Source of the DNA: Candidatus Gastranaerophilales bacterium
GTDB lineage: Bacteria; Cyanobacteriota; Vampirovibrionia; Gastranaerophilales; Gastranaerophilaceae
Direction: 5' to 3'
Assembly: GCA_017560095.1 (NCBI GenBank)
Contig: JAFYOU010000039.1
Coordinates: 1 to 64,000, forward strand
DNA length: 64,000 nt
Shown: piece by piece, positions 2,137 through 51,793 of the stretch
Numbering within the stretch: the stretch's first letter is position 1
Layout of the letters: each line of letters begins with the position of its first letter
Position numbers and translations under genes: made by a program
Notes under the pieces: generated by a model
Database searches by the model: none
Told to the model about the DNA's origin: nothing
What the model saw: the letters and a program-made list of their open reading frames with translations, nothing else

Positions 2137-2196
2137 TCTTATATTTTACCATAAATATAGTTGTACAAGTTGTTTTATTGATGTTAAAATAATTTT
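2137..2196. promoter_or_regulatory. Divergent promoters for thioesterase and queD, both leaderless type
   Basis: On the minus strand TGG-TAAAAT lies at 2151-2143, 6 nt before the ATG at 2136. On the plus strand TGT-TAAAAT lies at 2182-2190, 6 nt before the ATG at 2197. Both are extended -10 elements, and both predict transcription starting at the first base of the start codon. Confidence 0.65.
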
Positions 2197-2562
2197 ATGT
2201 TTGAAGTTAGAGTAGAAACAAATTTTTCATCAGCACATCATTTGCTTAATTATAAAGGTAAATGTGAAAATATGCATGGACACAACTGGAAAGTTGAAGT
2301 TACTGCGCGTGGAGATAAATTAGATTCTTCTAATATTTTAGTGGATTTCAAGACATTGAAACGTGTTGTTAATGAAGTGATGGAATATTTAGATCATAAA
2401 GATTTAAATGAACTTGACGAATTTAAAAATGAAAGTCCTAGTTCTGAGTTTATTGCAAAATTTATATTTTATAAAGTACGTGAGCAAATTAAAGAAGTGC
2501 ATTGTGTTAATGTTTGGGAAACACCGACATCACGTGCAAGTTATTTTGAGATAGAGGAATAG
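2197..2562 (+). CDS. queD: 6-carboxytetrahydropterin synthase QueD (PTPS family)
   Basis: 121 aa. Converts dihydroneopterin triphosphate to 6-carboxy-tetrahydropterin in the pathway to queuosine/7-deazaguanine. Zinc-ligand histidines are visible in SSAHHL (about residue 14) and MHGHNW (27 and 29). The catalytic Cys is in GKCENMHGH (24), the Asp-His pair is in YLDHKDLN, and the final Glu is in VWETPTS. Length fits QueD rather than animal PTPS. No other queuosine gene is nearby. The ATG is 6 nt after an extended -10. Four bases separate its stop from uppP, so the two are probably co-transcribed. Confidence 0.9.
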   Translation: MFEVRVETNFSSAHHLLNYKGKCENMHGHNWKVEVTARGDKLDSSNILVDFKTLKRVVNEVMEYLDHKDLNELDEFKNESPSSEFIAKFIFYKVREQIKEVHCVNVWETPTSRASYFEIEE

Positions 2563-2565
2563 ATA

Positions 2566-3402
2566 ATGCATACATTACAAGCAATAATAACAGGCGCAAT
2601 CCAAGGGTTGAGCGAGTTCTTGCCGATTTCAAGTTCTGCGCATATTGTGTTTTCTAATGAAATATATGAATTTGTGATAGGAGCTAAAACGGGAACTGTT
2701 CAAGAAGAGATATTTTTTAGTATAATTATTCATCTTGCAACTTTGCTTGCTGTTTTAATTTATTTTTTTAAAGATTTAAAAGAAATTTTTTTAGGCTTTA
2801 TGGTTTCGCTCAAAAATAAAGATTTTCAAAATCATAATTTTAAATTTGTTAATTATGTTATTTTAACTACCATAATTACTGGCATTATAGGGCTTTCTTT
2901 TAAAGAGCCTGTAGAAAAATTAATGTCTAATCCTCAAATAATATGTTTCTTTCTTTTTATAACAGGGTTAATATTATTAGCTAGTGAAAAATTTTATAAA
3001 GGTGATAAAGAAATTTCCCTAAAAAATTCTATTTTAATTGGTATTGCTCAAGGGTTAGCTATTTTTCCGGGATTTTCAAGAAGTGGGTTAACTATTTCAA
3101 CTGCATTATTTTTAGGAGCAGAAAGAACTAAGGCTGCAAGATTTTCTTTTTTAATAAGTATTCCAATTATTTTTTTAGCCTCAATGATATATCCTTTGCT
3201 CGAACTTGATTTTAATGCCATCTCAAGTTTTAATCATAAAGCTATGGTTTTAGGATTTTTAACATCGTTTTTTGTTGGTTATATATGCATTAAGTATTTT
3301 ATGAAACTTTTGGCAAAGTTAAGTCTAAGAATTTTTGGTTACTACTGCCTTGTTGTTGCAATGATGATGCTTGGATTATTTCAAGTCTATTGTCATCACT
3401 AA
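2566..3402 (+). CDS. uppP: Undecaprenyl-diphosphatase UppP (BacA)
   Basis: 278 aa polytopic membrane protein with the two BacA signatures: QGLSEFLPISSSAH near residue 13-26 (catalytic Glu and Ser) and PGFSRSGLTIST near residue 170 (catalytic Arg). It dephosphorylates undecaprenyl diphosphate, recycling the lipid carrier for peptidoglycan and other polymers. Partner of UppS at 20772. Its last 104 bp overlap the 3' end of the convergent nucleotidase gene, so the two coding regions share DNA on opposite strands. Confidence 0.95.
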   Translation: MHTLQAIITGAIQGLSEFLPISSSAHIVFSNEIYEFVIGAKTGTVQEEIFFSIIIHLATLLAVLIYFFKDLKEIFLGFMVSLKNKDFQNHNFKFVNYVILTTIITGIIGLSFKEPVEKLMSNPQIICFFLFITGLILLASEKFYKGDKEISLKNSILIGIAQGLAIFPGFSRSGLTISTALFLGAERTKAARFSFLISIPIIFLASMIYPLLELDFNAISSFNHKAMVLGFLTSFFVGYICIKYFMKLLAKLSLRIFGYYCLVVAMMMLGLFQVYCHH

Positions 3403-4903
3403 ATACTAAATTGTTTTTATTTTTCATTTTGCGAATATAATCGATTGCGGTTTTGTCCTTGTCGAAATCGTAAAATTTCACAGGGAATTTTGGCGCCAAA
3501 GCAGGATATTCTCCTCCTTCTTTCATTGTGAAATCATCATATATTGCGGTGTATGTAATTTTTTCTGATGGGTTATTTATATCAATAGGTTGTTTTCTTC
3601 CCTTTTTGTCAATGAAATTTAATTCTAATAAATTTCCATTTGTATCTACTTTATATGTAAAACCGCTGGTAAATAAAAATCCTGGTTCTCCATTCGGGCT
3701 TGTTAAAGTTTCTTTTGCTGCTTGAGAGATAGCATCTACTACTTGTTTTTGAGTAACTTTAGTTTTGATTAGCCTGTTTTTCATTGGAGCAGATTCTGTT
3801 ACATCTCTTTCTGTTAGTTTGCCTTCGGTTGGTATTTTTCTGATGTTTGCAGCATTTAAAAATGCACAATCTGCACCTAGTTCAAATCTCATTGAATCTA
3901 CAATCATGTTAGACCAAGCATGGGGCTTAACTCTTCTATTAGCTGCCATTGGTTCAATCTCTTTAATTGTACCAACGGTAGGACTTATTCCCATTTTTTG
4001 TTCTTTGATAAATTCAACATTTGGATTTTTTCTTGATGAAATTTCTGTTAGTTGATTTGAAACTTTTGAGATTACACCATTTGCATCAAATTCAACATCT
4101 AAAATGCCATAATATTTTCCATTTTCTCCGGCTTGAGTAATTACAACAGGTTGATTTGATTTTGATAAAACTATATTTTCGCCCTCAGAAGCTCCTTGGA
4201 CAACGCTATGAGAATGTCCGCCAATGATAATATCTAGACCTTCTAAGGCTGCAGCTATTTTCTTGTCATTTTCATAACCAGTATGTGATAAAAGAATAAT
4301 TCTTTCTACACCTTGAGATTTAAGTTCATCGATTTCTTTTTGTAAGGCTTTGATTGTGTCATCAAAATCCATTACTTCAATATCTTCTTGGATTGATTTT
4401 TTAGTACAGGTTTCAAAATCTAATGGCATTGCGCCAATTAAACCGTATTTGGTGCCATTTTCTACTTTTATTACTGATCTTTTTACAATATTTCTCATTG
4501 CGGCATCATCATCAAATTCGACATTGGTTGCCACAAAATCAATTTTTTTGCCTTTTGCAAATTCTTTCAATCCGTTTGCAGTTGCATCCATTTCGTGATT
4601 GCCGGCACCTGATGCATCAACACGCATTTCGTTTTGCATAATATCTAGGACAACTTCATTTTTTTTAACATCTCCGCCAGAAACATTGTCGCCACCGGAA
4701 AATGAAAAAGTATCATATTCTGTGGTGTTATTATTGAAATTTTTGCCAGCTTCCATTACGCCTGCTATTTTATCAGTATTTCCGTGGAGATCGTTAAAGT
4801 AAAAAATTTGTAGTCTTTTATTTGGCGTGCGTAACCCATTCTTACCAATTGCTTTGGTTGAAGTTTGGAAAGTATTAAAATTTACGTTATTAATGCTTAG
4901 CAT
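3299..4903 (-). CDS. 5'-nucleotidase/2',3'-cyclic phosphodiesterase-like metallophosphoesterase
   Basis: About 534 aa from the ATG at 4903; an in-frame TTG at 4918 is less likely. Two-domain UshA/5'-nucleotidase architecture. The N-terminal calcineurin-like domain has FNDLHGN (metal Asp and His), GGDNVSGGD, GNHEMD, LLSHTG and GGHSHS. The C-terminal nucleotidase domain covers roughly residues 320-510 (LNAANIRK, GFLFTSGF). Family members cleave phosphate from nucleotides, usually in the periplasm. Oddly, there is no signal peptide: the N-terminus reads MLSINNVNFNTFQ, resembling a tag seen on several lineage proteins here. Location is therefore uncertain. The 3' end overlaps uppP by 104 bp. Confidence 0.85.
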   Translation of the reverse strand: MLSINNVNFNTFQTSTKAIGKNGLRTPNKRLQIFYFNDLHGNTDKIAGVMEAGKNFNNNTTEYDTFSFSGGDNVSGGDVKKNEVVLDIMQNEMRVDASGAGNHEMDATANGLKEFAKGKKIDFVATNVEFDDDAAMRNIVKRSVIKVENGTKYGLIGAMPLDFETCTKKSIQEDIEVMDFDDTIKALQKEIDELKSQGVERIILLSHTGYENDKKIAAALEGLDIIIGGHSHSVVQGASEGENIVLSKSNQPVVITQAGENGKYYGILDVEFDANGVISKVSNQLTEISSRKNPNVEFIKEQKMGISPTVGTIKEIEPMAANRRVKPHAWSNMIVDSMRFELGADCAFLNAANIRKIPTEGKLTERDVTESAPMKNRLIKTKVTQKQVVDAISQAAKETLTSPNGEPGFLFTSGFTYKVDTNGNLLELNFIDKKGRKQPIDINNPSEKITYTAIYDDFTMKEGGEYPALAPKFPVKFYDFDKDKTAIDYIRKMKNKNNLVFSDDNRLEIIQASSLQQQGSSNQKFLDLTLPKVS

Positions 4904-5030
4904 ACTTCCATAAAACAAGTGAATCTAAAAAATTGCCTTTTGTTAGCAATAATTAATATATTAGGTTGATTTAATTACTGCTTGATTTCATTATACTTGA
5001 AACATTACGATTGGGGAAGAAGTTTTTAAA

Positions 5031-5924
5031 ATGGCAGTTAAAAAAAATGTAAAAATTAAGAAACAAGCAAATCTTGAAGTAGTTAAACCAATTAAAACGA
5101 AGCCATATAATGATATTGATTTAAATAATTGGAAATTATATGAAAATGTAAAAACTGGTACTTGGTGGGAATTTGATAAGCGGGAAAAAAGCAATGGGCA
5201 TTCTTACGATTATCATGGAAACTATATTCCTCAAATAGCAACGCAACTTTTTGAAAGATATACAAAAAAGGGTGATGTTGTATTAGATTTATTTTTTGGA
5301 TCAGGCACTTCAGGTATTGAAGCAAAAAATATGAAACGTCGTTGCATAGGGGTTGAATTAAAGCAAGAAATGGTGGATTATGTTTCAAAAAAATTCAGCC
5401 CAAAAGAACTTGTTGTTGATGTGAATATTATTCAAGGTGATAGTGCTTCAAGTGCAGCAAAAGAAAAAATCCAAAATAGACTTGAGATTATGGGTGAAAA
5501 GTCAGCTCAATTTCTAATTTTACATCCGCCTTATGATGACATTATTAAGTTTTCTGATAAAAAAGAAGATTTATCAAATTGTGCCACAACTGAAGAATTT
5601 TATGATTTGTTTAAAAAAGTTGCAAAAAATGGTTATGATTTATTAGAGCAAAATCGTTTTGCCGCATTAATTATTGGCGACAAATATGCAAATTCTCGCT
5701 ATATTTCTCTTGGTTTTGAGTGTCAAAGAAGAATGGAAGAACTTGGCTTTGTTACAAAAGCTGTTATTGTAAAAAATATTGTCGGTAACGAGAAAGCAAA
5801 GGGTAAAACTGCTAATTTGTGGAGATATAGAGCGCTATCAGGCGGATTTAATATTTTTGAACACGAATATATTATGATATTTCAAAAAACTAAGTTGAAA
5901 AAAGTAAAAAATAAAGAAATATAA
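5031..5924 (+). CDS. Orphan DNA methyltransferase (N6-adenine or N4-cytosine, permuted class)
   Basis: 297 aa. The AdoMet-binding motif I is LDLFFGSGTSGIEA (about residue 85) and catalytic motif IV is ILHPPYDDIIKF (about residue 165). Motif order is permuted relative to classic gamma-type enzymes, or the AdoMet half simply comes first. Motif IV has His in place of the usual Asp/Ser (HPPY), a variant I have seen in methylases of this kind. The C-terminus ends in a typical EHEYIMIFQK strand. A Lys-rich N-terminus may contact DNA. No restriction enzyme or specificity subunit is adjacent, so this is probably a solitary methylase. Shine-Dalgarno GGGGAAG precedes the ATG. Confidence 0.85.
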   Translation: MAVKKNVKIKKQANLEVVKPIKTKPYNDIDLNNWKLYENVKTGTWWEFDKREKSNGHSYDYHGNYIPQIATQLFERYTKKGDVVLDLFFGSGTSGIEAKNMKRRCIGVELKQEMVDYVSKKFSPKELVVDVNIIQGDSASSAAKEKIQNRLEIMGEKSAQFLILHPPYDDIIKFSDKKEDLSNCATTEEFYDLFKKVAKNGYDLLEQNRFAALIIGDKYANSRYISLGFECQRRMEELGFVTKAVIVKNIVGNEKAKGKTANLWRYRALSGGFNIFEHEYIMIFQKTKLKKVKNKEI

Positions 5925-5944
5925 AAGACAATAGAAGAGAATAA

Positions 5945-5970
5945 AAAGGCTGGTATTACCAGCCTTTACT
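5945..5970. terminator. Terminator between methyltransferase and emrB-like gene
   Basis: AAAGGCTGG TATTA CCAGCCTTT, a perfect 9-bp stem with A and T tails. It can act in both directions between two convergent genes. Confidence 0.85.
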
Positions 5971-6001
5971 TTTGAAGTATATAGAATTAAGATTTTTAGG
6001 G

Positions 6002-7555: not shown

Positions 7556-7563
7556 TTTTAAAC

Positions 7564-8538: not shown

Positions 8539-8554
8539 TTTATACTCCTTTATA

Positions 8555-9107: not shown

Positions 9108-10466
9108 ATGAAAAAGCTATTAGCAACAACTGTTTTAAGTATGCTTGCAATTAATTTAATAATTGAACCGGCATGTGCAATTTTAGAAAGAAAAATTGAT
9201 AAACAAACAAAGCAAACAACAATTTTAGATACAGTTAATTTTGATTGGTGGAAAAAGCAAAATGATGAGCACCTTGAAAAATATATAGTTTCAGCAATAA
9301 ATAATAATTACGATATTAAAACCGCTGCGCTAAAAATTGAACAAGCACAGATTAATGTCATGTCCACTCGAGCGGGTCAATTGCCAACATTGTCAATTGG
9401 TGCAAGTCCAGCGTTAATAAAAATGCCTGAAACAACAAAAACAATGGGGTCGTTTGCGCTTCCTGTTATGGCAAGTTGGGAACTAGATTTGTTTGGAAAA
9501 AATTGGGATAAAACAAAATCTTCTAAAAAATTATTAAAAGGAGTTGAATCTCAAGCTGCGGCTAGTGATATTGCAATTATCGCTGCAGTTGGAAGTGTTT
9601 ATTATAATATAGTTAAACTTGATAAATTAATTGAAGTTCAGAAAGACTTGGTTAAAGACAGAGAGTCTATTTATAATTTAATGAAACTATCAAATGATGA
9701 AGGAATCGCATCAACTGCTGATATGATTCAGGCTGAAAAATCTTTTGTTATGTCGCAAAATGAACTTTTGGATTATGAAAAAGCTAGAAATTCTGCGCTA
9801 AATGCGTTGGCTATATTAATTGGAGATAGTCCAGAAAACAAAAAAGAATATTCTAGAATTTCAGCAGATGAATTAAATTTGCAATTCGACGTGCCAAGTG
9901 AAATTTCTTCTGATATCATCTCGTCTCGTCCTGATTATAAAGCATTGGAATATCAATTAGAAGCTGCAGGACTTGATGTTCGTGTTGCAAAGAAAGAGTT
10001 TTTGCCAACAATTAATATATTAGGTATGTTAGCTTTTGTTGCAACTTCTGCTGCTTCATCTATGAGCTTTGAAAATGCACTTGGTTTAGCTGCTGGAAGT
10101 GTTAATCTCCCAATATTTACTGGTGGTTTAAAAAAGGCAAATTTGAAGTTAAACAAAAATAAGTATGAGCAACTTTTAGCGCAATATCAAAAAACAAATT
10201 TAATAGCCATTCAGGAAGTAAATGATTCGTTGTATAACTTTAAATCTGATGAAGAAAAATTAAAAAACAATTCAAAAGCATATGAAATACAAAAAAAAGA
10301 TTATGGATATTCTGAGTTAAAATACGACGAAGGTGTAATCTCTAAGCTAGATTTATTGCAACAAAAAGAAGCGTTATTATATATGGAAAAGCTTCTTGCA
10401 AGCTCAAAAACCGATTGTTATATAGATAAAATAAGTCTATACAAAGTTACTGGAGCCAGGATATAG
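9108..10466 (+). CDS. TolC/NodT-family outer membrane efflux protein
   Basis: 452 aa. An N-terminal signal peptide (MKKLLATTVLSMLAINLI..ACA) is followed by two repeats of the OEP fold: long coiled-coil helices with ASWELDLFGKNWDKTKSS near residue 120 (family WxxDLFG motif) and IFTGGLKKANLKLNKNKY near residue 330 (second-half hallmark). It forms the trimeric outer-membrane channel for the adjacent EmrAB-like pump. No lipobox Cys is evident right after the signal. TGAGG lies before the ATG. Divergent from marR and sharing its operator. Confidence 0.92.
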   Translation: MKKLLATTVLSMLAINLIIEPACAILERKIDKQTKQTTILDTVNFDWWKKQNDEHLEKYIVSAINNNYDIKTAALKIEQAQINVMSTRAGQLPTLSIGASPALIKMPETTKTMGSFALPVMASWELDLFGKNWDKTKSSKKLLKGVESQAAASDIAIIAAVGSVYYNIVKLDKLIEVQKDLVKDRESIYNLMKLSNDEGIASTADMIQAEKSFVMSQNELLDYEKARNSALNALAILIGDSPENKKEYSRISADELNLQFDVPSEISSDIISSRPDYKALEYQLEAAGLDVRVAKKEFLPTINILGMLAFVATSAASSMSFENALGLAAGSVNLPIFTGGLKKANLKLNKNKYEQLLAQYQKTNLIAIQEVNDSLYNFKSDEEKLKNNSKAYEIQKKDYGYSELKYDEGVISKLDLLQQKEALLYMEKLLASSKTDCYIDKISLYKVTGARI

Positions 10467-16377: not shown

Positions 16378-16414
16378 GTTTTCATCTTAACATAATTTTT
16401 GCTATATTGAAATT
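16378..16414. promoter_or_regulatory. 37-bp divergent promoter region, both leaderless type
   Basis: Minus strand: TGT-TAAGAT at 16392-16384, 6 nt before the padR ATG (16377). Plus strand: TGC-TATATT at 16400-16408, 6 nt before the GT-C ATG (16415). The two -10 elements are separated by 7 bp, so the promoters must compete for polymerase and PadR would control both. Confidence 0.65.
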
Positions 16415-17857
16415 ATGGGGTTTGTAAATATTTTGAAAGAAAAATTAAATAAGTTTTTCCCGATTGTTTTTGTGTTTTTTTGCTTTGTTTTGATTTTCAC
16501 AAGAACCCCATTTTTTGACGAAGCTCATGCATATTTATTATCAAAGTTCAGTTTGAATGAATTATGGCAAATAACAAGGATTGAAGGACATCCTTTGATT
16601 TGGTTTTTAATTTTAAAAACCATTAATTGGCTTAATTTTTATCCATACTCTATTTTGTTTTTAACTTGGGTTATTTCTTCGATTTTAATTATCTTTTTTT
16701 GGAAAAAAGCTCCTTTTTTGTCTTTTATTAAAATATTAATTCTGCTTTCTTTTCCATTTTTGGGATATTTTTTAATTGTTGCAAGGCCCTATGGTTTAAC
16801 GGTTTTATTGTTGTTTTTAACAACTCATTATTTTAAAAAACAAAAATTGATTTTATTTTCTTTATTTTTGACTTTTTTGGCAAATATAACAATTATGGGT
16901 GCAATTGGCGCAAGTAGTTTTTTAGTTCTTTTTGTTAAAAAAATAATTCAAGAAAAAATAAATAAAAAAAATTTAATTATCTCTATTCTAATTATTTTAT
17001 TTGGATTTTTGTTTTTATTTTTGCAGTTATATAATCCTCAAATTCCTGATAAAATAAATGAAATTAGCGAAAGTGTTAAAAATGGATTGATTTATTATTT
17101 TGTTTTTCCATTTAAAGATTTTTCATTAAAGACAATATATCAAAATGTATTTCAGATATTTTCATTTGTTTTATTTTATTTAAGTTTAATTATATTTTTT
17201 AAAAAAGATAAAAATTCCTTTTTCTTTTTGATTTTTTCATTTTTGTTTTTGACGCTTTTATTTTTAAATATCTATTCTGGTGCTTGCTGGCATTATTTTT
17301 TCTATTTTATATTTTTCATTGTTTCTCTTTGGATTTCTTGGGAAAAAATTAGAGAAATAAAATTTTATAAATATTTTGTGATTTTATTTTTATTTTTGAC
17401 GATTAATCCAATATTTTATCTTGAAAATGGAATAGATGTTATAAAAGAGACAAAAAAATACAAGCCTATTTTGCTAAAAATAATAAATGATAAAGAATAT
17501 AAAAACTCCAAGCTTTTTTGTTTTGAAAAATATTCATATCTGGCGCCAGCCTTAATTCCATATTTAGAAAAGAAAAATATTTATCTTTATGACATAAATG
17601 GTTACAAGAGAGGAAGTTTTGATTCTTATATACAAACATATTTAAAGAAAGAAAAAGGAAGCAAAATCGACTCTTTTGTTCTTAATTTGCAAAAAGATGC
17701 AAGTAATTATCTTTTTGTAAATAACTTATCTAATCTTAATATTCCTTCTATAATTGTTTTAGAGGGTAAACAATATAAAATATTATTAAAATTGGTTGAT
17801 AAAATTGAAGAATGTATTTTTGCTGTGTATAAAATAGAGGTTCAAAGAATTGACTAA
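16415..17857 (+). CDS. GT-C-like polytopic glycosyltransferase, paralogue 1
   Basis: 480 aa, very hydrophobic, about ten membrane segments. The first extracytoplasmic loop has FTRTPFFDEAHAYLL; the DE pair sits where GT-C enzymes (PMT/ArnT type) keep their catalytic acids. Further shared blocks with its three paralogues: RIEGHPLIWF, WKKAPF, VARPYGL, CWHYFFYF, and a soluble C-terminal domain with APALIPYLE. GT-C enzymes move sugars from polyprenyl-phosphate carriers to periplasmic acceptors. The next gene starts 8 bp before its stop. Exact family unnamed; glycosyltransferase role is inferred from fold features and neighbours. Confidence 0.72.
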   Translation: MGFVNILKEKLNKFFPIVFVFFCFVLIFTRTPFFDEAHAYLLSKFSLNELWQITRIEGHPLIWFLILKTINWLNFYPYSILFLTWVISSILIIFFWKKAPFLSFIKILILLSFPFLGYFLIVARPYGLTVLLLFLTTHYFKKQKLILFSLFLTFLANITIMGAIGASSFLVLFVKKIIQEKINKKNLIISILIILFGFLFLFLQLYNPQIPDKINEISESVKNGLIYYFVFPFKDFSLKTIYQNVFQIFSFVLFYLSLIIFFKKDKNSFFFLIFSFLFLTLLFLNIYSGACWHYFFYFIFFIVSLWISWEKIREIKFYKYFVILFLFLTINPIFYLENGIDVIKETKKYKPILLKIINDKEYKNSKLFCFEKYSYLAPALIPYLEKKNIYLYDINGYKRGSFDSYIQTYLKKEKGSKIDSFVLNLQKDASNYLFVNNLSNLNIPSIIVLEGKQYKILLKLVDKIEECIFAVYKIEVQRID

Positions 17858-19292
17858 AGAAAAATTGAATAAATATCTTGAAATATATTCTCCGTTTGCT
17901 TTTATTTTTTTAACTTTAATAATTGCAATATTTAGAATTCCTTTTTATGATGAAACCCACGCTTTTATTATTTCTCAGTTAAGTTTTGCTGAAATTTTTC
18001 AACTTTCAAGAATAGAAGGGCATCCAATTTTATGGTATTTGCTTTTGAAGCCATTTAATAATTTAAATTTATACCCTTATTCAATGGCAATTATTAATTG
18101 GATTTTTGCAAGTTTGATGATACTTGTTTTTTGGAAAAAGGCTCCATTTGATAATTACATTAAGTTCTTTTTAACCTTTTCATATCCTTTTTTTCAATAT
18201 TTTGGAATAGTTGCAAGACCTTATACTCTTGGTGTTTTGGCTATTTTTTTATTATGTGTTTTTTATAAAAACTCTATTAAAAGGCCAATATTGTTTTCAT
18301 TCTTATTATTTTTGTGTGCAAATATAAGTGTAATTACTGGATTTGTTGCTTTTGGGTTTGGGGTTTTATTTTTGCATGAAATTTTCAAAAATAAACTTTC
18401 TAAAAAAGATTTAATTTCAATTATCGCAATATTTGTAACAGGTTTAATTTTGTTGGCTTGTCAATTTTTATTTCTTGAGACGCCAAAACTGCAATCAGAT
18501 AATGCACATATCCTTTTTTTAAGACATTTTTCTTATTTTGTGGTTGCCCCTTTTTTAGATTTGCAAAGTAAAAATTTAAATCAAATTGCACTTCAATTGA
18601 CTAGCTCTGTGTCATTTTTTTATTTTACATTCTTGTTTTTAAAAAAAGCAAAAGATTCTTTATTGATATTCTTTTTGCCTTTGTTTTTTATGTTGTTGTT
18701 GCATATATTTATATATATTGGTGATTTTTGGCATTATTATTTTATATTTATTGCTTTCATTTGTGCATTATGGGTTAATTGGGATAAATTTAAGAACAAT
18801 AAAATTGTTAAGATCCTTTTTGTTTTATTGATTCTTTTTAATATGAGCTCTTATTCTTTGACAAAAAATGGAAGAAATCAATTAAATCAACCTGTTTTTT
18901 ATAAAAAAACTTTAGATGTAATATTGAATTCAAAAGATTACAGGAATTCTAAAATATTTTGTTTAAATTACTATTCTCATATTGCTCCAGGATTGTTACT
19001 GTATTTAAAAAAGGAAAATATAGTTTTGTATGATAATCATAATAACGACATAACTAATTTTGAAGCAATAAGGAACCTTCAAAATGTGAAATATAATGAA
19101 TTAAATCTTGATGAATTTGTTGAATATTTAGATAAGACTAAAAATAATTATCTGATTGCTGCTTCTAATAAAACATCAGATTATCAAAGTTTTAGTTATA
19201 ATGAAGGAAATAAAACGCTTTATTTGGACTTGGTCGATATTTATCCACAGTTGTATTTGTTGATTTATAAATTAAGATATGAAATACGCTAA
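17850..19292 (+). CDS. GT-C-like polytopic glycosyltransferase, paralogue 2
   Basis: 480 aa. Same block order as paralogue 1: FRIPFYDETHAFII, RIEGHPILWYLLLKPF, WKKAPF, VARPYTLG, FWHYYF, and C-terminal FCLNYYSHIAPGLLLYLK followed by YDNHN. Starts 8 bp inside paralogue 1 and overlaps paralogue 3 by 14 bp, so translation of the run is coupled. The start is fixed by the overlap and by the position of the first membrane helix. Confidence 0.72.
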   Translation: MTKEKLNKYLEIYSPFAFIFLTLIIAIFRIPFYDETHAFIISQLSFAEIFQLSRIEGHPILWYLLLKPFNNLNLYPYSMAIINWIFASLMILVFWKKAPFDNYIKFFLTFSYPFFQYFGIVARPYTLGVLAIFLLCVFYKNSIKRPILFSFLLFLCANISVITGFVAFGFGVLFLHEIFKNKLSKKDLISIIAIFVTGLILLACQFLFLETPKLQSDNAHILFLRHFSYFVVAPFLDLQSKNLNQIALQLTSSVSFFYFTFLFLKKAKDSLLIFFLPLFFMLLLHIFIYIGDFWHYYFIFIAFICALWVNWDKFKNNKIVKILFVLLILFNMSSYSLTKNGRNQLNQPVFYKKTLDVILNSKDYRNSKIFCLNYYSHIAPGLLLYLKKENIVLYDNHNNDITNFEAIRNLQNVKYNELNLDEFVEYLDKTKNNYLIAASNKTSDYQSFSYNEGNKTLYLDLVDIYPQLYLLIYKLRYEIR

Positions 19293-20715
19293 AATTATAA
19301 TACCCGTACTATATTTAATTTTTAGTTTAATAATTAGTTTCAATAGGGTTCCTTTTTGGGATGAAGCAAGAGCCTGGCTTGTTGCTCAAAATTGTAGTCC
19401 GCTTGAATTTTTAAACTTGATGAAACTTGAGTGTCATTTTTCTCTTTGGTATATTGCAATTTTTCCTTTTGCAAAACTGAATTTGTTTTATCCTTATTCA
19501 ATTTATATTTTGAATGCTCTTTTTGCATTTGTTTCAATATGTTTATTGTGGAATAAATCACCGTTTAATGCTTTTCAAAAAATCTTAATAACTTTTGGAG
19601 TCCCTTTTTTGTTTTTGTGGGGAAGTGTGGCAAGATGTTATTCGATTGGAATAATGTTTCTATTTTTAGCACTTTCGATTTATAAAGAAAGATTTGAAAA
19701 ATCTTATAAATATTTGATTTTGCTATGTCTATCTGCTCACACTTCTGTTATGGCTTTTATTGGCAGTTTTTTTCTTTTATTGATTTTTCTTTTTGAAAAT
19801 TTTAAGAAAAAGCAGTTTTTGAAGCTTTTAGGAATTTTTCTTTTATCCAATTTTTTAATTTTATTACAAATTTATGATCCAAATCCTGATTATTTAAAAC
19901 AAGCTCCAGAAATGGCTTTTTTAAGAGATTTTATTTGGTATTTGTTGAATCCTGTTGTCATAATTTCACAATATAAAATTCAGTCTTTATTGATGACAAT
20001 ATTAAGATTGAGTGTTATTGTGACTGCTTTTGTATATATTGGCTATGTCTTAAAAAGTAATAAAAAAAATTTATTTTTTATATTTTCGACTTATTTTTCA
20101 ATGGTGATTTTATTTACTTTTTTCTATAGTGGAAATTTTTGGCATTACTTTTATTTTTATTTGTATTTTATAGTTGCAACTTGGATTTTGAAATTTGAAA
20201 ATAAATCTCCTATGGCTTTAAATACAATGATAACAATTATTTTAATTATGTTTATGTTTAAAGGTTCATTATTTATTGATTCAAAATTGTCAACTGTAAA
20301 TAATTCAACATCAAATCTAATCGCAATAGAAATTCAAAAAAATTATAAAGGCAAAAAATTGTTCTGTTTGGATCCTTGGAGCGATATTGCACCAAGCGCT
20401 TTACCATATTTAAAAGAAATAGATATTTTTGATAAATATAATCAAAACAGAAAAAGCTTTGAAAGCATGAGAAGTCAAATCCGATTTAATAGAGAGCCCT
20501 TCGATCCCGATGAATTTGCAAAATATGTTGAAAAAGATTCTATTCTTCTGACGACAACATCTTTTTTAAATCACGAATTAAAAAATCCAAAAAGAAAATT
20601 TGATGAGAAAACAGGAGTAGTGTCTTTTATTGGGAATAAAAAAACTATTGAATTTATTCCATATAAATTTATGGAAGAAATTTGCCTTTGGACTTATTTA
20701 ATAAAAGTTAAATAA
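19279..20715 (+). CDS. GT-C-like polytopic glycosyltransferase, paralogue 3 (divergent motif)
   Basis: 478 aa. Aligns with the others (FNRVPFWDEARAWLV, WNKSPF, VARCYSIG, FWHYFYFY, C-terminal APSALPYLKEIDIF), but the DExH motif reads DEAR and the RIEGH motif reads KLECH. These changes flank the presumed catalytic loop, so this member may use another donor or acceptor, or bind without catalysis. It precedes uppS by 56 bp. Confidence 0.7.
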   Translation: MKYAKIIIPVLYLIFSLIISFNRVPFWDEARAWLVAQNCSPLEFLNLMKLECHFSLWYIAIFPFAKLNLFYPYSIYILNALFAFVSICLLWNKSPFNAFQKILITFGVPFLFLWGSVARCYSIGIMFLFLALSIYKERFEKSYKYLILLCLSAHTSVMAFIGSFFLLLIFLFENFKKKQFLKLLGIFLLSNFLILLQIYDPNPDYLKQAPEMAFLRDFIWYLLNPVVIISQYKIQSLLMTILRLSVIVTAFVYIGYVLKSNKKNLFFIFSTYFSMVILFTFFYSGNFWHYFYFYLYFIVATWILKFENKSPMALNTMITIILIMFMFKGSLFIDSKLSTVNNSTSNLIAIEIQKNYKGKKLFCLDPWSDIAPSALPYLKEIDIFDKYNQNRKSFESMRSQIRFNREPFDPDEFAKYVEKDSILLTTTSFLNHELKNPKRKFDEKTGVVSFIGNKKTIEFIPYKFMEEICLWTYLIKVK

Positions 20716-23525: not shown

Positions 23526-23540
23526 TGCTAGAATGATGGT
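23526..23540 (+). promoter_or_regulatory. Leaderless-type promoter of the antiporter gene
   Basis: Extended -10 TGC-TAGAAT at 23526-23534, a 6-nt gap, then ATG at 23541. No Shine-Dalgarno fits in the gap. Confidence 0.6.
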
Positions 23541-27190: not shown

Positions 27191-27233
27191 TACTCCTTTT
27201 ATTTGATTTTATTTTTTGTTATATAATTTTTTT

Positions 27234-28073
27234 ATGGAAAATAATTATTTAATAGCATTTATATTTTCTGCAATTGCGGGCTTATCAACTGTAATTGGTG
27301 GTTTAGTTACTTTTTTTATAAAAGGTAATTCGCTTAAATATCTTTCCTTTGGGCTTGGATTGTCAGCTGGTGTTATGTTGTTTGTTTCATTGGTTGACTT
27401 ATATCCAGAAGCAGGTGAAATGATAAAAGCACAAATGGGCGATAAATATACCTGGTTGGCTATAGTATGTTTTGGTTTAGGTATTTTGGTTGCTATTTTG
27501 ATAGATTATTTTATTCCTGATCATATTCAAGCTTCAATGTTCACCAAACAAATTGGTGCTAATGAAAAACATATAGATAGTACTGATTGCAAACAAGATG
27601 AAAATGCGGTGATTTCCATAGGCAAAGTTAGACGAGCAGGTTTGATTACAGCAATAGTTGTTGCGCTCCATAATTTACCTGAAGGTCTTGCAACATTTAC
27701 ATTGACAACTCAGGATGTGATGCTTGGCTTGGGTGTTGTTTTTGCAATTTCAATACACAATATTCCTGAAGGTATGGCTATTTCAATTCCTGTTTATCAA
27801 GCAACTCATTCTAAAAGAAAAGCTTTTTTATATTCTTTTTTATCTGGTATGGCTGAGCCTGTTGGGGGTGTGTTGGGTTATTTGTTAATTAATGCATTAT
27901 TTCCAAATCTTTGTATAGGTACACTTTTTGCTCTTGTTGCAGGAATTATGACGTATATTTCGCTTGATACATTATTGCCTTTATCAAGAGACTATGATAC
28001 TGGCCATTACTCAATAAGCGGAATGGTTTTTGGATTAATGATAATGGGTATTGCTTTAAATTTTATACATTAA
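27234..28073 (+). CDS. zupT: ZIP-family metal transporter (ZupT-like)
   Basis: 279 aa from the ATG at 27234; an upstream TTG at 27216 overlaps the -10 box and is rejected. Eight predicted helices. Signature HNLPEGLATF in TM4 and HNIPEGMAIS in TM5, the paired metal-binding helices of ZIP proteins. Takes up Zn2+ and probably other divalent cations. The cytoplasmic loop near residues 95-130 has DCKQDE and several His. No operon partner. Confidence 0.92.
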   Translation: MENNYLIAFIFSAIAGLSTVIGGLVTFFIKGNSLKYLSFGLGLSAGVMLFVSLVDLYPEAGEMIKAQMGDKYTWLAIVCFGLGILVAILIDYFIPDHIQASMFTKQIGANEKHIDSTDCKQDENAVISIGKVRRAGLITAIVVALHNLPEGLATFTLTTQDVMLGLGVVFAISIHNIPEGMAISIPVYQATHSKRKAFLYSFLSGMAEPVGGVLGYLLINALFPNLCIGTLFALVAGIMTYISLDTLLPLSRDYDTGHYSISGMVFGLMIMGIALNFIH

Positions 28074-30295: not shown

Positions 30296-30359
30296 AAATT
30301 AACTATAGCTAAATGTTTCTACTTTTGCAACAAAAAACAAAATGTGTTATAAAATAAGT
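30296..30359. promoter_or_regulatory. Divergent promoters for SDR and csaB, both leaderless type
   Basis: Minus strand TATAGT at 30307-30302, 6 nt before the ATG at 30295. Plus strand TGT-TATAAA at 30345-30353, 6 nt before the ATG at 30360. The plus -10 box decides the csaB start, because the upstream in-frame ATG (30342) lies before it. Confidence 0.6.
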
Positions 30360-31370
30360 ATGAAAAATGTTCTTGTTTCTGGCTATATAGGCTTTGATAA
30401 TTTTGGAGATGAAGCAATTTTTTATGCCTTATCAACTCATTTGAAAAAAATGGGTTATTTTGTAAGTGTACTTTGCAATAAGAAGCAAAATGTTAGTAAA
30501 AAATATGGCGTAGTTGCATACAATTACAAAGAGCCTTTTGAAATTTTTAAAGCAATTACTAGTTGCGATATTTTGATTTCTGGTGGAGGAAGCTTGCTTC
30601 AAAATAAAACAAGCAATTTTAGTTTGTTTTATTATCTTTTAGTACTTTTATTTGCTAAAATTTGTTTTAAAAAGGTTATAATTTTTGCGCAAGGAGTTGA
30701 ACCTATTATAGGTAAGATTCCAGAATTATTTACAAGAACAATTTTAAAATTAGTTGATTTTATTTCTGTAAGAGATGATAAATCTAAAGAACTTTTGGAG
30801 TCTTGGAAAATTAAATCAAATTTGGTTTCTGATCCTGCTTATTCTTTAGTCCAAGATAAGGAAATATCTAAAAAAGAAGGTTTGATTGTTCAACTTCGAA
30901 GCTTTAAAGGGATGGATGATAAACTTTTGAGCAATTTATGCGATTCAATAGTTAAAAATTACAAAGATGAAGTAAAAGTATTTTCTTTTCAAGACGAGGT
31001 TGATGAAAATATTTGTCTTAAATTTGTAGAAATGATTAAAAAAAAGTCAGCAAATGCAAAATATATTTCAGCTAAATCGATTGATGAAACCATTAATATA
31101 ATTAATGGTTCAAAATATATGATTTCAACAAGACTTCATGGTTTGATTATTTCAAATGCACTGCAAACAAAAACTTTTGCTCTTTGTTATGATGATAAAA
31201 TTAAAACAATTGTTGAAGAATTAAATCTAGAAAATATTGATATTTTAAATTATAGTCAAGATGAATTAAATAAAAAGATGGATAATTTTTTTGGTGATAC
31301 AATAAGTAATGTTCTTCCATATCGTAGGTTTGAGTGGGATGAAATAGATTTTGAGTTAGCAAAGCAATAA
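30360..31370 (+). CDS. csaB: Polysaccharide pyruvyl transferase CsaB
   Basis: 336 aa. N-terminal VLVSGYIGFDNFGDEAIFYAL and C-terminal ISTRLHGLIISNAL are the two family motifs. It adds pyruvate ketals to cell-wall polysaccharide; in Firmicutes, Thermus and cyanobacteria this makes the ligand for SLH domains. Suggests that SLH-type outer-membrane or surface proteins are anchored to pyruvylated peptidoglycan-linked polymer; no SLH gene is in the window. Followed 10 nt later by the acyltransferase. Confidence 0.92.
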   Translation: MKNVLVSGYIGFDNFGDEAIFYALSTHLKKMGYFVSVLCNKKQNVSKKYGVVAYNYKEPFEIFKAITSCDILISGGGSLLQNKTSNFSLFYYLLVLLFAKICFKKVIIFAQGVEPIIGKIPELFTRTILKLVDFISVRDDKSKELLESWKIKSNLVSDPAYSLVQDKEISKKEGLIVQLRSFKGMDDKLLSNLCDSIVKNYKDEVKVFSFQDEVDENICLKFVEMIKKKSANAKYISAKSIDETINIINGSKYMISTRLHGLIISNALQTKTFALCYDDKIKTIVEELNLENIDILNYSQDELNKKMDNFFGDTISNVLPYRRFEWDEIDFELAKQ

Positions 31371-43395: not shown

Positions 43396-43423
43396 TTGAC
43401 AATATAACTTGACCAAGTATTAT
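43396..43423 (+). promoter_or_regulatory. Promoter of the rplJ-rplL operon
   Basis: TTGACA at 43396-43401 and TATTAT at 43418-43423, spaced by 16 bp: the strongest consensus promoter in the window, with a long leader after it. Confidence 0.75.
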
Positions 43424-43430
43424 CATTATA

Positions 43431-43548
43431 GTACCAAAGACAGTTGGTGGCTTATGCCTTAAATTTCCAACCGAGGTTTCAAAAAATTAAATATTACTTA
43501 TTTAATAATTTTGGCCGTTTTGCGTACTATACTCGCAAAACTTTTTTG
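43431..43548 (+). ncRNA. Ribosomal protein L10 leader with attenuator
   Basis: Contains ACCAAAGACAGTTGGTGG...CTTAAATTTCCAACCGAGGT, the conserved L10 leader core bound by the L10(L12)4 complex. It is followed by GTTTTGCG TACTATACT CGCAAAAC (43517-43541) and six T, an intrinsic terminator. L10 binding is therefore expected to favour early termination and balance L10/L12 production. The lack of a long frame start inside it confirms rplJ begins further down. Confidence 0.85.
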
Positions 43549-43599
43549 TTTATAAAATTGATTTGCGAAGTCTTAAAAGAAAGGAGAAACGCAAACAAA

Positions 43600-44582: not shown

Positions 44583-44587
44583 TAGTT

Positions 44588-45670: not shown

Positions 45671-45730
45671 AAAAAATTAACCTCCGTAAAATCCTAATAT
45701 AAAACAATAAAGTGTTTTTCTTTAAAAAAA

Positions 45731-45763
45731 TTGCGCAAAAAATATTTATAGTATAATTTTTTT
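45731..45763 (+). promoter_or_regulatory. Leaderless-type promoter of the CoA-activase-like gene
   Basis: TTGCGC at 45731-45736, TATAAT at 45752-45757, then 6 nt and the ATG at 45764. No ribosome site. Confidence 0.6.
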
Positions 45764-46903: not shown

Positions 46904-46957
46904 TGTTAAAATTTTATAATATGATATAATCCCTATAGTATTTATAGGGATTTATTT

Positions 46958-48430: not shown

Positions 48431-48443
48431 AATTTTATTCTAC

Positions 48444-48477
48444 AAAAAAGAGCTGACTTTCGCCAGCTCTTTTTATA
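48444..48477 (-). terminator. Terminator after tsf
   Basis: AAAAAGAGCTG/CAGCTCTTTTT hairpin with a short loop and T/A tails, between tsf and maf. Confidence 0.85.
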
Positions 48478-48490
48478 TTTTTGTATAAAA

Positions 48491-49363
48491 CTAACCTTTA
48501 ATTTGGCTCATTACTTCTTGCGCAAAGTTATCTTGTCTTTTCTCAATACCTTCACCAAGAACGTATCTATCAAATTTAACGATTGTAGTTTTGCCTTCAA
48601 TCAATTGTCCAACTGTTAAATCAGGGTTTTTAACAAATGGTTGTTCCAATAAACAACGTTGAGCCATTAGTTTATTAACTCTGCCTTCAACAATTTTTTC
48701 TCTGATTTGTTCAGGTTTATTAGCAAGATCTTCTTTACCCATTTCGATACGTTTTTCTTCTTCAATTATAGAAGCTGGGATTTCTTCTCTTGAAATAAAT
48801 TCAGGAGCATTTGAAGCAATGTGCAAACATACATCTTTTGTTAAAGCCTCATCAGCATCGCCAGTTACTTCAACCATAACACCGATTTTACCATTGTGGA
48901 TGTATGTGTTAACAGAACCTGCAACATCATATCTTTCAAATCTTCTGATAGTAATTTTTTCACCAATTGTAGCAATTTTTTCTTTAATTACTTCTTCGAT
49001 TTGTTTTTGACATTCTGGACAAACAGCAGCTAACAAATCTTCAACTGTTGCTGGGTTTAATTTAGCAACTGCACGAGCCATCATTAAAGCAAATTCTTTA
49101 AAATCTTCATTTTTAGCAACGAAATCAGTTTCACAGTTTACTTCAACCATAGCACCGATTTTACCTTCAACAACTGAAGCAACTACACCTTCAGCAGCAA
49201 TTCTGCCCATTTTTTTATCAGCAGAAGCCATACCTTTTTGTCTTAATAGCTCAACTGCTTTATCCATATCACCATTGGTTTCAACAAGAGCTTTTTTAGC
49301 GTCCATCATACCAGCGCCAGTTTTATCTCTTAGTTCTTTTACCATAGATGCTTTAATTTCCAT
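48491..49363 (-). CDS. tsf: Elongation factor Ts
   Basis: 290 aa. ASMVKELRDKTGAGMMDAKKALVETNGDMDKAVELLRQKG (EF-Tu contact), ASVVEGKIGAMVEVNCETDFVAKNEDF, and C-terminal EQPFVKNPDLTVGQLI. Nucleotide exchange factor for EF-Tu. AGGAG precedes the ATG. Follows rpsB as in most bacteria. Confidence 0.98.
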   Translation of the reverse strand: MEIKASMVKELRDKTGAGMMDAKKALVETNGDMDKAVELLRQKGMASADKKMGRIAAEGVVASVVEGKIGAMVEVNCETDFVAKNEDFKEFALMMARAVAKLNPATVEDLLAAVCPECQKQIEEVIKEKIATIGEKITIRRFERYDVAGSVNTYIHNGKIGVMVEVTGDADEALTKDVCLHIASNAPEFISREEIPASIIEEEKRIEMGKEDLANKPEQIREKIVEGRVNKLMAQRCLLEQPFVKNPDLTVGQLIEGKTTIVKFDRYVLGEGIEKRQDNFAQEVMSQIKG

Positions 49364-49393
49364 AGTTTATTCTCCTAATTCTAATCTAATTTC

Positions 49394-50146
49394 TTATGCT
49401 TCAGCATTAGCATCAGCTGCAACAACTTTTTCGATTTTACCTGTAGTTTTAGCATTGTTAGCTCTTAACTCTTTTCCTTCTAAAACAGCGTCAGCCAATT
49501 TTGAAGCGATTAATTTGATTGAACGAAGAGCATCGTCATTACCAGGGATAATGTAGTCAATACCATCAGTGTCAGCATTTGTATCTGCTAAACATACAAC
49601 AGGAATACCAAGTTTATTAGCTTCTTTAATTGCAATTAATTCTTTCTTTTGATCAACCACAACTAAAATATCAGGCATACCTTTCATTTCTTTAATACCG
49701 CCTAATGTTTTAGATAATTTTGCTAATTGTCTGTTTAATTGAGCAACTTCTTTTTTAGGAAGTTTATTAGCAGCACCAGATTCTAAGAATGCTTCTAACT
49801 CTCTTAATTTGTTAACTCTGCCACGAATTGTTTCAAAGTTAGTCATCATACCACCTAACCAACGACGGTTAATATAGTATGAACCACATCTTGTAGCTTC
49901 TTGAGCAATTACATCAACTGCTTGTTTTTTAGTACCTACAAAAAGTACATTTCTTCCCATAGAAGCAACTTTTCTTACCGCATCATAAGCTGCATCTAAT
50001 AAATCAGAAGTCTTTCTTAAGTCGATTATGTAAATACCATTTTTTGCACCAAAAATATATTGTTTCATTTTTGGATTCCATTTTTGAGTTTGGTGACCAA
50101 AGTGTACACCAGCATCTAATAATTCTACTAAAGTAGCTGTAGCCAT
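49394..50146 (-). CDS. rpsB: 30S ribosomal protein S2
   Basis: 250 aa. [83 protein letters not shown] are S2 hallmarks. Operon rpsB-tsf. The 5' leader region (50147-50240) folds into hairpins and may mediate S2 feedback. Confidence 0.98.
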
Positions 50147-50240
50147 GTTTCTTGTCCTTTCTGTTTTTCGGTTTAATCCTGACCCCTTGGCTTTTGGGCT
50201 GGCTAAAATGCCATTTGGAAATAATGACCGAAAAGGTAAT
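50147..50240 (-). promoter_or_regulatory. Possible S2 leader RNA
   Basis: Upstream of rpsB on its own strand: pairing 50165-50172 with 50227-50234 (TTTTCGGT with ACCGAAAA) closing an inner hairpin TGGC/GCCA at 50200-50213 and a G+C-rich segment (CCAGCCCAAAAGCC). Position and closed-stem form fit an autoregulatory leader; I cannot confirm a known Rfam structure. Confidence 0.45.
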
Positions 50241-50352
50241 CTAATAACACTAAAATTCTATTTTAAACATGGTTTAAAAGCAAGCGATAATTATTGTTTA
50301 GTAAACTTTTGTATAAAGCGTACTGTTTTATACAAAATATTTTATTGACATC

Positions 50353-50372
50353 TTGTAAGGTTTACCTTACAA
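50353..50372. promoter_or_regulatory. DtxR/MntR-type operator
   Basis: TTGTAAGGT-TT-ACCTTACAA, a perfect inverted repeat with 9-bp arms, 30 bp before the regulator's ATG. A weaker half (CGTAAGG..GCCTAAC) overlaps the start region at 50384-50400. Resembles DtxR-family boxes (AGGTTA-type core), predicting autoregulation. Confidence 0.75.
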
Positions 50373-50401
50373 TAAAATAAATTCGTAAGGGAAGCCTAAC
50401 A

Positions 50402-50770
50402 ATGATAACATCAAGTTTAGAAGATTATCTTGAATATATTCATAATAAAATTGCTCAAGATAAAGCTATCAAAGCAATCGATATAGCAAACAGGTTTAAT
50501 GTTTCACGCTCGACTATTTCAGAAGCCTTAATTCGACTTGCCGACCTAGATTTAATTATCTATGAAGGTAGACGAGGAATTAAAATAACTCAAAAAGGAA
50601 TAGAACAAGCAAAAAAAACTATAAAAAAACATGATGTTTTATCCAGTTTTTTTGCAAAAATTCTTAAAATAGATTCAGCCTTAGCAGACAAAAACGCATG
50701 CAAAATTGAACATGTAATAGATGATGAATTAATAGAAAAAATGAATGAGTATATAAATAGCCATGAATAA
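50402..50770 (+). CDS. DtxR/MntR-family metal-dependent regulator
   Basis: 122 aa. TSSLEDYLEYIHNKI at the N-terminus (family hallmark), HTH with AIDIANRFNVSRSTISEALIRLADLDLI, wing, and a dimer domain with ACKIEHVID (Cys/Glu/His metal ligands as in DtxR-type proteins). No C-terminal SH3 domain, so MntR/SirR-like in length. The operator lies directly upstream. No Fe or Mn transporter is adjacent; downstream is a lineage protein overlapping by 8 bp. Confidence 0.9.
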   Translation: MITSSLEDYLEYIHNKIAQDKAIKAIDIANRFNVSRSTISEALIRLADLDLIIYEGRRGIKITQKGIEQAKKTIKKHDVLSSFFAKILKIDSALADKNACKIEHVIDDELIEKMNEYINSHE

Positions 50771-51743
50771 CTTCAAAATATTTGGAAAATTTTTAGACCA
50801 GCCAATTTTGATTTCGAAACTAAACAAAGCCATGCCAGCAATAATGACTATTGGTGGAAGCGCACTTCTTGCACGTGACGCATTTGACACATTCAAAAAC
50901 ACACAAGATAAACAACAAGCAAAAAAAGAAATTTTTAAAAAAGGCATAATTATGGCCTTTTCAATTGCAAGTGCCTTAGCAGCACCAAAAATTGCATCAA
51001 AACTTGTAAAAAGGGAAAGTATTGAACCTATAGAAAAAATTGCAAGAAAAAACAGTGAATTAATCAATGATTATATTTCTAAAAACCAAATAAAGGAAGA
51101 CATTAAACCAATATTAGAAAAAGCAACAAATAAAATATTATCTCTTAGTGAAATAAAAACTTTAGTTCAAGAACTAGTACAAGACAAAAATGGTAAAGAA
51201 TTATTTAATAAACTAATCCCAGATCCTGAAAATATTAAAGCACGCGATATCTTCTCAGAGATAGGCTACTTATCAACCTACGGAGCAATTCCAGTAATTG
51301 GCGGGATTCTAGGCGGAATTAGCGCAGATATTGCAACAAAAGAAGATTGCAAAAAAACGATTCCAAATAAAATAAATGAAGGAATTTATCAGTATTTAGC
51401 AAATATATTTATGTGCAATATTGGAGCAGGTGTAGCATTGGGAATACTTGAAAAACTGAATATAACATCAAAATCAGCTCGAGCAATAAGCATGGTTTCA
51501 GGAATAGTCCTAACAGGGGTATTAGGAGGTTCAAAAATAGCTAACTTTATCTCCCAAAAGATTATTGCACCACTTACAAAATCAAAACAACAAGAAAGAA
51601 AACCCGAAGCAATGGATATTTGCCTTCATACCGATGATATTGCAACAGTTTCTTTATTATCAGGATTAAAATGGATTGAACCAACATTGCCTATTTTATA
51701 CAGTGTTTCAGGCTACAAAGCAGGAAGTGGATACAGGAATTAA
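50763..51743 (+). CDS. Lineage protein with hydrophobic segments, 326 aa, unknown
   Basis: Hydrophobic stretches lie near residues 25-40, 60-80 (GIIMAFSIASALAAPKIASKL), 165-185 (YGAIPVIGGILGGISADIA), 215-235 and 255-270 (SMVSGIVLTGVLGGSKIANFI). Charged, Lys-rich linkers lie between. No signal peptide, no recognised motif. Starts 8 bp inside the DtxR-type gene, so it is co-translated with a metal regulator, the only hint of its role. Could be a membrane protein of the local class that includes the 728-aa protein at 12229. Confidence 0.62.
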   Translation: MNNFKIFGKFLDQPILISKLNKAMPAIMTIGGSALLARDAFDTFKNTQDKQQAKKEIFKKGIIMAFSIASALAAPKIASKLVKRESIEPIEKIARKNSELINDYISKNQIKEDIKPILEKATNKILSLSEIKTLVQELVQDKNGKELFNKLIPDPENIKARDIFSEIGYLSTYGAIPVIGGILGGISADIATKEDCKKTIPNKINEGIYQYLANIFMCNIGAGVALGILEKLNITSKSARAISMVSGIVLTGVLGGSKIANFISQKIIAPLTKSKQQERKPEAMDICLHTDDIATVSLLSGLKWIEPTLPILYSVSGYKAGSGYRN

Positions 51744-51793
51744 GTTTTATTAAATATTTGTTATTAGTGAAAATAAACATATAAAATATAAGC

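Follow-up and report, generated by a model that had tools for sequence, protein, structure and literature searches.

A 64,000-nucleotide (nt) stretch of a Candidatus Gastranaerophilales genome, part of contig C37 of the 2.07-Mb assembly G000 and termed the window here, contains eleven genes preceded by a −10-like hexamer that ends exactly 6 nt ahead of the ATG. We consider it very probable (at roughly 90%) that such hexamers are the −10 elements of sigma-70 promoters, placed so as to end 6 bases ahead of the start codon, and that these promoters yield leaderless mRNAs beginning with AUG. The motif, its fixed distance from the start codon and the near-exclusive use of ATG are read directly from the sequence, as are a T at position −1, the scarcity of Shine-Dalgarno (SD) sequences, the operon-leading position of the genes and conservation in orthologs; from these we infer the transcription start and leaderless translation. 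The last four features, together with an extended −10 element, support the prediction made in the initial annotation that transcription would start on the A of the ATG, which follows from the −10 element ending 6 bases ahead of it. In the proposed mechanism, sigma-70 RNA polymerase would recognise the −10 box and start on that A, and the ribosome would start on the 5′-terminal AUG without SD pairing. In consensus form, the promoter would begin with a weak TTG around −35; a T-rich stretch and TATGn or TGn would lead up to TANNNT, which spans −12 to −7, with T occupying −1 and +1 falling on the A of the ATG. Gastranaerophilales are the non-photosynthetic sister group of Cyanobacteria and mostly dwell in the gut.

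For the positional analysis, starts were defined as the first in-frame ATG of open reading frames (ORFs) of at least 90 amino acids (aa), leaving out shorter ORFs, those overlapping a longer ORF by more than 35%, those without ATG and those starting within 70 nt of the end of a stretch; locus L001 was excluded from the counts because it overlaps L048. The distance d is the number of nucleotides between the end of the hexamer and the ATG, and the background is the mean over d = 12–30. Because TANNNT alone proved a noisy classifier in other genomes, T(−1) was added to the motif, and the resulting strict motif consists of a −10 box, five bases, T and then a purine. The own-genome sample comprised 547,689 bases and 431 starts, window included. 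The pooled Gastranaerophilales sample comprised 1,327 starts from the own genome, five other genomes, pilB loci and ten further genomes. With the pilus-type ATPase of the window as a query, 19 loci were matched, 16 of them from close relatives.

The genome-wide motif scan against controls that the initial annotation had proposed revealed a sharp enrichment at 6 nt, so that the refuting outcome named there, no enrichment at this distance, did not arise. In the own genome, TANNNT occurs at d = 6 ahead of 52 of the 431 starts, compared with 10 and 8 at the neighbouring distances of 5 and 7 nt and a background of 19.8; the 2,733 later in-frame ATGs of the same genome lack such a peak. The pooled set gives 131 of 1,327 at d = 6, with 25 at d = 5 and 35 at d = 7; dinucleotide shuffles of this set average 54.2, and the highest of 60 shuffles reaches 72. 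With the strict motif, a leader length of 0 is found in 92 of the 1,327 starts, and lengths 1, 2 and 3 in 1, 2 and 12, whereas lengths 4–45 average 4.8 and never exceed 10. Plasmid 1 of Deinococcus deserti, the positive control, has 4/134 at d = 5 and 5/134 at d = 6 over a background of 0.8; Escherichia coli, the negative control, has 0/92 at d = 6.

An AT-rich genome might yield TANNNT everywhere, from which sites at 6 nt could have been picked. The guanine-plus-cytosine (GC) content of the sampled stretches is indeed only 27–35%, and the own-genome background corresponds to about 4.6% per position (19.8/431). The positional, shuffle, later-ATG, cross-genome and ortholog tests all reject this explanation, however, and stretches from photosynthetic Cyanobacteria at 35% GC show no excess (13/310 at d = 6 against a background of 12.7). 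Given the peak at exactly 6, we rejected chance, whose probability we regard as close to negligible.

Within the window, all eleven hexamers reported in the initial annotation are present, each ending 6 nt ahead of its ATG. Ten have the form TANNNT; the exception, at the gene starting at 30360, reads TATAAA and lacks the final T. The sites are as follows, each being 6 nt from the ATG named:

2143–2148, minus strand: −10 box TAAAAT with TGG before it; ATG 2136 of a YbgC/FadM-type thioesterase gene (1741–2136); the evidence comprises sequence, family match and orthologs
2185–2190, plus strand: −10 box TAAAAT with TGT before it; ATG 2197 of a queD-like gene, divergent from 2136
16384–16389, minus strand: −10 box TAAGAT; ATG 16377 of a PadR-type regulator
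16403–16408, plus strand: −10 box TATATT; ATG 16415 of a 480-aa ORF without NCBIfam/Pfam match, divergent from 16377
23529–23534, plus strand: −10 box TAGAAT; ATG 23541 of a Na+/H+ antiporter family gene
27222–27227, plus strand: −10 box TATAAT; ATG 27234 of a ZupT-type transporter
30302–30307, minus strand: −10 box TATAGT; ATG 30295 of an SDR oxidoreductase
30348–30353, plus strand: TATAAA, without the final T; ATG 30360 of a CsaB-type pyruvyl transferase; the weakest of the eleven sites
45752–45757, plus strand: −10 box TATAAT; ATG 45764 of a DUF2229 (CoA enzyme activase-like) gene
48437–48442, minus strand: −10 box TAGAAT; ATG 48430 of a Maf nucleotide pyrophosphatase; the evidence comprises sequence, family match and orthologs
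51782–51787, plus strand: −10 box TAAAAT; ATG 51794 of a 187-aa ORF without family match, upstream of pilus-type genes

Two of these eleven starts are chosen rather than forced, since the ORF at 30360 has another in-frame ATG 18 nt upstream, at 30342, and that at 27234 could be extended to a TTG at 27216. Under the fixed start rule, 11 of 61 window starts have TANNNT at d = 6, with a mean of 3.05 at d = 12–30; 30360 is missing from this set, and one of its starts, near 18,084, seems to be accidental. Across 1,000 dinucleotide shuffles of the window, the mean at d = 6 is 2.57 and none reaches 11. Three divergent gene pairs had been described as boxed on both sides. The pairs 2136/2197 and 16377/16415, with 60 and 37 base pairs (bp) between their ATGs, are solid, but the third (30295/30360) hinges on TATAAA. 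The own-genome sample contains 4 such doubly boxed pairs among 58 divergent pairs. In one of the four, at locus L051 near 9,195–9,209, the ATGs lie only 14 bp apart with a box at 6 on both sides, and the two boxes overlap on opposite strands.

The bases around the box point to a transcription start on the A of the ATG. T is found at −1 in 107 of the 131 pooled starts with a box at d = 6 (42/52 in the own genome, 24/25 in five others and 12/13 in the pilB loci), as opposed to 424/950 for boxes at d = 9–30 (204/432 in the own genome, 171/333 in the five others and 49/185 in the pilB set); genes without a box favour A at this position (0.50 A, 0.35 T). The resulting T(−1)A(+1) is the pyrimidine-purine step at −1/+1. 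TG one base ahead of the hexamer occurs at 15 of 51 own-genome sites (one overlapping gene was dropped) and 13 of 38 sites in other genomes, compared with 57 of 599 boxes at other distances in the own genome. Similarity to TTGACA is, on average, greatest at a spacing of 17 in both sets (2.33 and 2.39 of 6). A second peak at distance 11 with T(−1) was set aside, being largely the TATGnT of the extended −10 itself. A relative encodes an RpoD-like sigma factor (L205) that retains regions 2–4, is 50% identical there to E. coli RpoD and includes VHMIET, the stretch that presumably reads the TG extension.

The initial annotation had noted that the boxed starts have no SD sequence and that operonic or ribosomal genes do. 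SD-like sequences precede none of the 92 strict sites but 578 of the 1,235 other starts, and under a looser rule they are found at 3 of 52 boxed starts in the own genome. A 16S rRNA gene, from which the anti-SD could be read, was not found in the G000 assembly by a 16S family search that matched only 9 of 14 control genomes. When starts are sorted by upstream neighbour, the strict motif precedes 44 of 412 divergent genes and, among co-directional genes, 25 of 171 with a gap of 31–100 nt, 9 of 226 with a gap above 100 nt and 9 of 446 with a gap of at most 30 nt; at stretch ends the count is 5 of 72. The box thus serves mainly operon-leading genes, and operon-internal and many other genes have SD-like sequences.

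The same counts bear on whether the hexamer acts in translation, as a ribosome-binding or AT-rich signal of the kind assumed for Bacteroidetes or for those Cyanobacteria whose non-SD signals are weak, and not as a promoter. The hexamer does occupy the usual position of a ribosome-binding site, and SD-like sequences take its place in some maf orthologs. However, its spacing is exact to a single base, it carries the TG extension, it is followed by T at −1 where genes without a box favour A, and it is rare at gaps of at most 30 nt (the 9/446 above), where a ribosome-binding site is most needed. We therefore rejected a translation signal for the main class and consider it highly improbable.

Start codon choice is likewise skewed. 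When each ORF was given its longest-ORF start, the strict motif preceded 75 of 1,050 ATGs (8.0 expected from shifted positions), 1 of 99 GTGs (1.2 expected) and 1 of 195 TTGs (1.3 expected).

Conservation was examined in orthologs of two boxed genes of the window, ybgC and maf. Of 60 family genomes searched, 59 had a ybgC match and 58 a maf match, and the best 30 loci of each, own genome included, were read. Among these, ybgC has TANNNT exactly at 6 in 21 loci, the window locus included, with T(−1) in 20 of the 21, and one more locus fits via an in-frame ATG one codon upstream. For maf the box is at 6 in 13 of the best 30 loci, with T(−1) in 12 of the 13, and again one more fits via an upstream ATG. 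The ATG that follows the box coincides with the N-terminal alignment point, or lies at most four codons from it, in most loci of both genes; in L154 it lies nine codons upstream.

These alignments also weigh on the proposal that the promoters are real but that their transcripts carry leaders of 1–6 nt, or that the true start codon lies elsewhere. Some ybgC orthologs have the box at 7, 9 or 10, and leader length 3 is raised above the mean of 4.8, to 12. Leader lengths 1 and 2, in contrast, are almost empty (1 and 2 of 1,327), and the proximity of the boxed ATG to the alignment point argues against a start elsewhere. Short leaders were rejected for the main class and seem to us very unlikely there.

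Several observations count against leaderless promoters as the explanation. Contamination of the G000 assembly is listed at 7.07%. TANNNT alone at d = 6 is only modestly raised in the five other genomes first sampled (25, background 15.8) and in the pilB loci (13, background 9.2). T(−1) is absent at 3 of the 11 window sites and present at only 29 of 41 sites in the last ten genomes, below the proportion first seen in the five others. The −35 trend is weak: good matches in other genomes peak at spacing 16 and not 17, and the control consists of neighbouring spacings only. The mutual exclusion of SD and box is partly forced, because the two would occupy the same positions. One maf ortholog, L141, has its box ahead of a GTG, and candidates within the first 300 nt of ORFs are slightly raised for GTG (5 vs 2) and TTG (17 vs 11), so that ATG use is near-exclusive and not absolute. 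Finally, 8 of the 30 ybgC loci and 16 of the 30 maf loci have no box at 6 at any in-frame start considered. In four of the 8 ybgC loci the box lies at 9, which places the predicted +1 on ATT or GTT, and an SD-like sequence is absent from all 8; 11 of the 16 maf loci have one. With the box at 6 in 13 of 30 loci and SD-like sequences in 11 of the 16 without it, maf appears to be leaderless in some genera and SD-led in others.

To follow the arrangement across the phylum, TATAAT-N6-ATG was counted against TATAAT-N9-ATG in 244 Cyanobacteriota genomes. The d = 7 pattern is unsuited as a genome-wide control, because distances of 1 mod 3 are favoured within coding sequence as such, as the later in-frame ATGs show: the own genome has 107 matches at d = 6, 96 at d = 7 and 60 at d = 9, and d = 7 equals or exceeds d = 6 in several family genomes. 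We therefore chose d = 9, which shares the phase of 6. The reversed pattern, a further control, gives 38 in the own genome at d = 6. In the family of the window, N6 exceeds N9 in all 107 sampled genomes (12,313 vs 5,775 in sum; p < 0.01 in 103), with a median ratio of 2.14, a lowest ratio of 1.20 and a median excess of 60 per genome, and 7,823 of the 12,313 N6 matches have the form TATAAT-N5-T-ATG. Dividing this median excess by the TATAAT share of boxes (28/89) suggests about 190 leaderless genes per genome. The excess at d = 6 amounts to about 5–8% of starts in the samples, depending on the choice of background, and we put the predicted leaderless share of genes at roughly 5–10%.

In the 112 photosynthetic genomes, defined by the presence of PsaA/PsaB, there is no detectable enrichment at d = 6 (3,029 vs 2,898; N6 exceeds N9 in 59 of 112, with p < 0.01 in one). 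One photosynthetic genome, G151 of family f22, has 57 matches at d = 6 and 34 at d = 9. Among families without a photosystem match, N6 is raised over N9 in f6 (213/95, 5 genomes), f10 (24/6, 1 genome) and f14 (36/10, 2 genomes); the counts are 309/202 in f3 (5 genomes), 12/4 in f13 (2 genomes) and 251/212 in f17 (2 genomes), and level in f4 (20/19, 5 genomes) and f20 (0/1, 1 genome). A single f2 genome has 65 vs 40, and G147 (family f11, no photosystem match) falls outside both the family and the photosynthetic groups. Stretches sampled from these families were too short for a judgement in f10 and f14, with 0/7 and 0/36 at d = 6; f6 stretches have 4/129, with T(−1) in 1 of the 4, and f3 stretches 4/64 (background 2.7), two of the 4 having T(−1). 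Thus, every sampled part of the Gastranaerophilales family shows the arrangement, some other non-photosynthetic Cyanobacteriota are enriched for it as well, and photosynthetic Cyanobacteria show no detectable enrichment; since f6, f10 and f14 also show an excess at d = 6, the counts hint that the trait may be older than Gastranaerophilales.

Leaderless initiation is already known in other bacteria, its TG-extended low-GC form included, but this lineage appears to be undescribed. TA-like (TANNNT) leaderless signals were reported in 207 of 953 bacterial genomes (Zheng et al. 2011, PMC3160421). In the portions of that study drawn on here, Cyanobacteria are not among the groups named, many Cyanobacteria are described as using neither SD nor leaderless starts, and Gastranaerophilales go unmentioned. 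The arrangement resembles the −10-like signal that those authors located some 10 bp ahead of the start codon and took as leaderless, and in particular that of low-GC Firmicutes (Lactococcus), where TAtAAT is accompanied by a TG peak; TG is enriched here too. It is also like that of Deinococcus-Thermus, where TANNNT about 6–7 bp before the ORF acts as a −10 element for which base changes, sigma interaction and reporters have been reported (Zhong et al. 2025, PMC12340547); the domain-wide scan of that study used complete reference genomes. In Deinococcus-Thermus, however, about 30% of ORFs are involved at 6–7 bp, whereas the share here is about 5–10%, the excess is confined to 6 bp (131 vs 35 at 7), and TG extension, T(−1) and low GC are added.

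Mycobacterial leaderless RTG (ATG or GTG) transcripts likewise have the start codon at +1, an adjoining −10 and no SD (Shell et al. 2015, PMC4633059), an organisation that is predicted here from sequence. Mycobacteria use both ATG and GTG at +1 and prefer C at −1 (PMC4633059), whereas GTG and TTG are rarely boxed here and −1 is mostly T. In mouse-gut Cappable-seq data, leaderless transcription start sites made up 10% and 15% in two of four species (Ettwiller et al. 2016, PMC4782308); the four were Lactobacillus johnsonii, Akkermansia muciniphila, a Lachnospiraceae bacterium and Bifidobacterium pseudolongum. The YR (pyrimidine-purine) motif reported there for all four at −1/+1 agrees with the T(−1)A(+1) seen here; the words Cyanobacteria and Melainabacteria are absent from the main text of that paper.

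Within the phylum, the primary transcriptome of Synechococcus elongatus UTEX 2973 includes 19 gene transcription start sites (gTSSs) regarded as leaderless, so that the mode exists in Cyanobacteriota (PMC6091082); few genes are involved in that strain as reported there, in contrast to the share predicted for Gastranaerophilales. The StartLink paper, in the part considered, describes the start signals of species such as Cyanobacteria as weak and their mechanism as unknown. In agreement with the initial annotation, which knew of no description for this lineage, searches of the open-access literature found no paper joining leaderless genes with Gastranaerophilales or their relatives, with subscription papers, preprints and supplements lying outside that search.

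With this finding, the bacteria that have many leaderless genes would come to include a lineage that is widespread, lives in association with hosts and is for the most part uncultured. The contrast between sister lineages, with the arrangement present in Gastranaerophilales and not detectable in photosynthetic Cyanobacteria, could be used to date its gain or loss. For the annotation of start codons in these genomes it offers a rule: a TANNNT box, five bases, T and ATG.

In a minor class of sites, the predicted +1 lies a codon upstream of the ATG. Leader length 3 is raised in the pooled sample, as given above (12 of 1,327), and was seen once in the ten genomes sampled last. Four ybgC loci (L162, L168, L176 and L183) have the predicted +1 one codon ahead of the ATG, the codon often being ATT, GTT or ATA. 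In 97 family genomes, TATAAT-N5-T-RTH-ATG occurs 428 times and the corresponding T-RVH-ATG 468 times (R, purine; H, not G; V, not T), against 190 and 415 for the reversed-pattern controls; in the own sample, codons before internal Met are RTH in 371 cases and RVH in 1,283. Within the 60 nt up to the first ATG, the strict motif precedes 21 of 1,786 in-frame and 18 of 2,695 out-of-frame RTH codons, and 33 of 5,323 in-frame and 38 of 8,568 out-of-frame codons among the other purine-first codons. The class is small, yet on these counts it does not look random, and could reflect start codons that have decayed, leaders of three bases that are tolerated, or initiation at a near-cognate 5′ codon. A more far-reaching scenario, which we regard as improbable, holds that some mRNAs would begin with a near-cognate AUU, AUA, AUC or GUU followed by AUG, with the ribosome starting, now or once, at that first codon; they would belong to a two-state leaderless/SD system that switches between maf orthologs, is old in non-photosynthetic Cyanobacteriota and was lost in the photosynthetic line.

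Two further regions of the window, both on the plus strand, stand out. At 16415–20715, opposite the PadR-type regulator, three ORFs of 480, 480 and 478 aa, none with a Pfam match, follow one another in an AT-rich stretch (GC 0.24). At 43416–43556 lies a ribosomal protein L10 leader (RF00557), inside which the mechanical ORF start (TTG at 43444) falls; since the L10 match begins only at residue 59 of this ORF, the real L10 start lies downstream.

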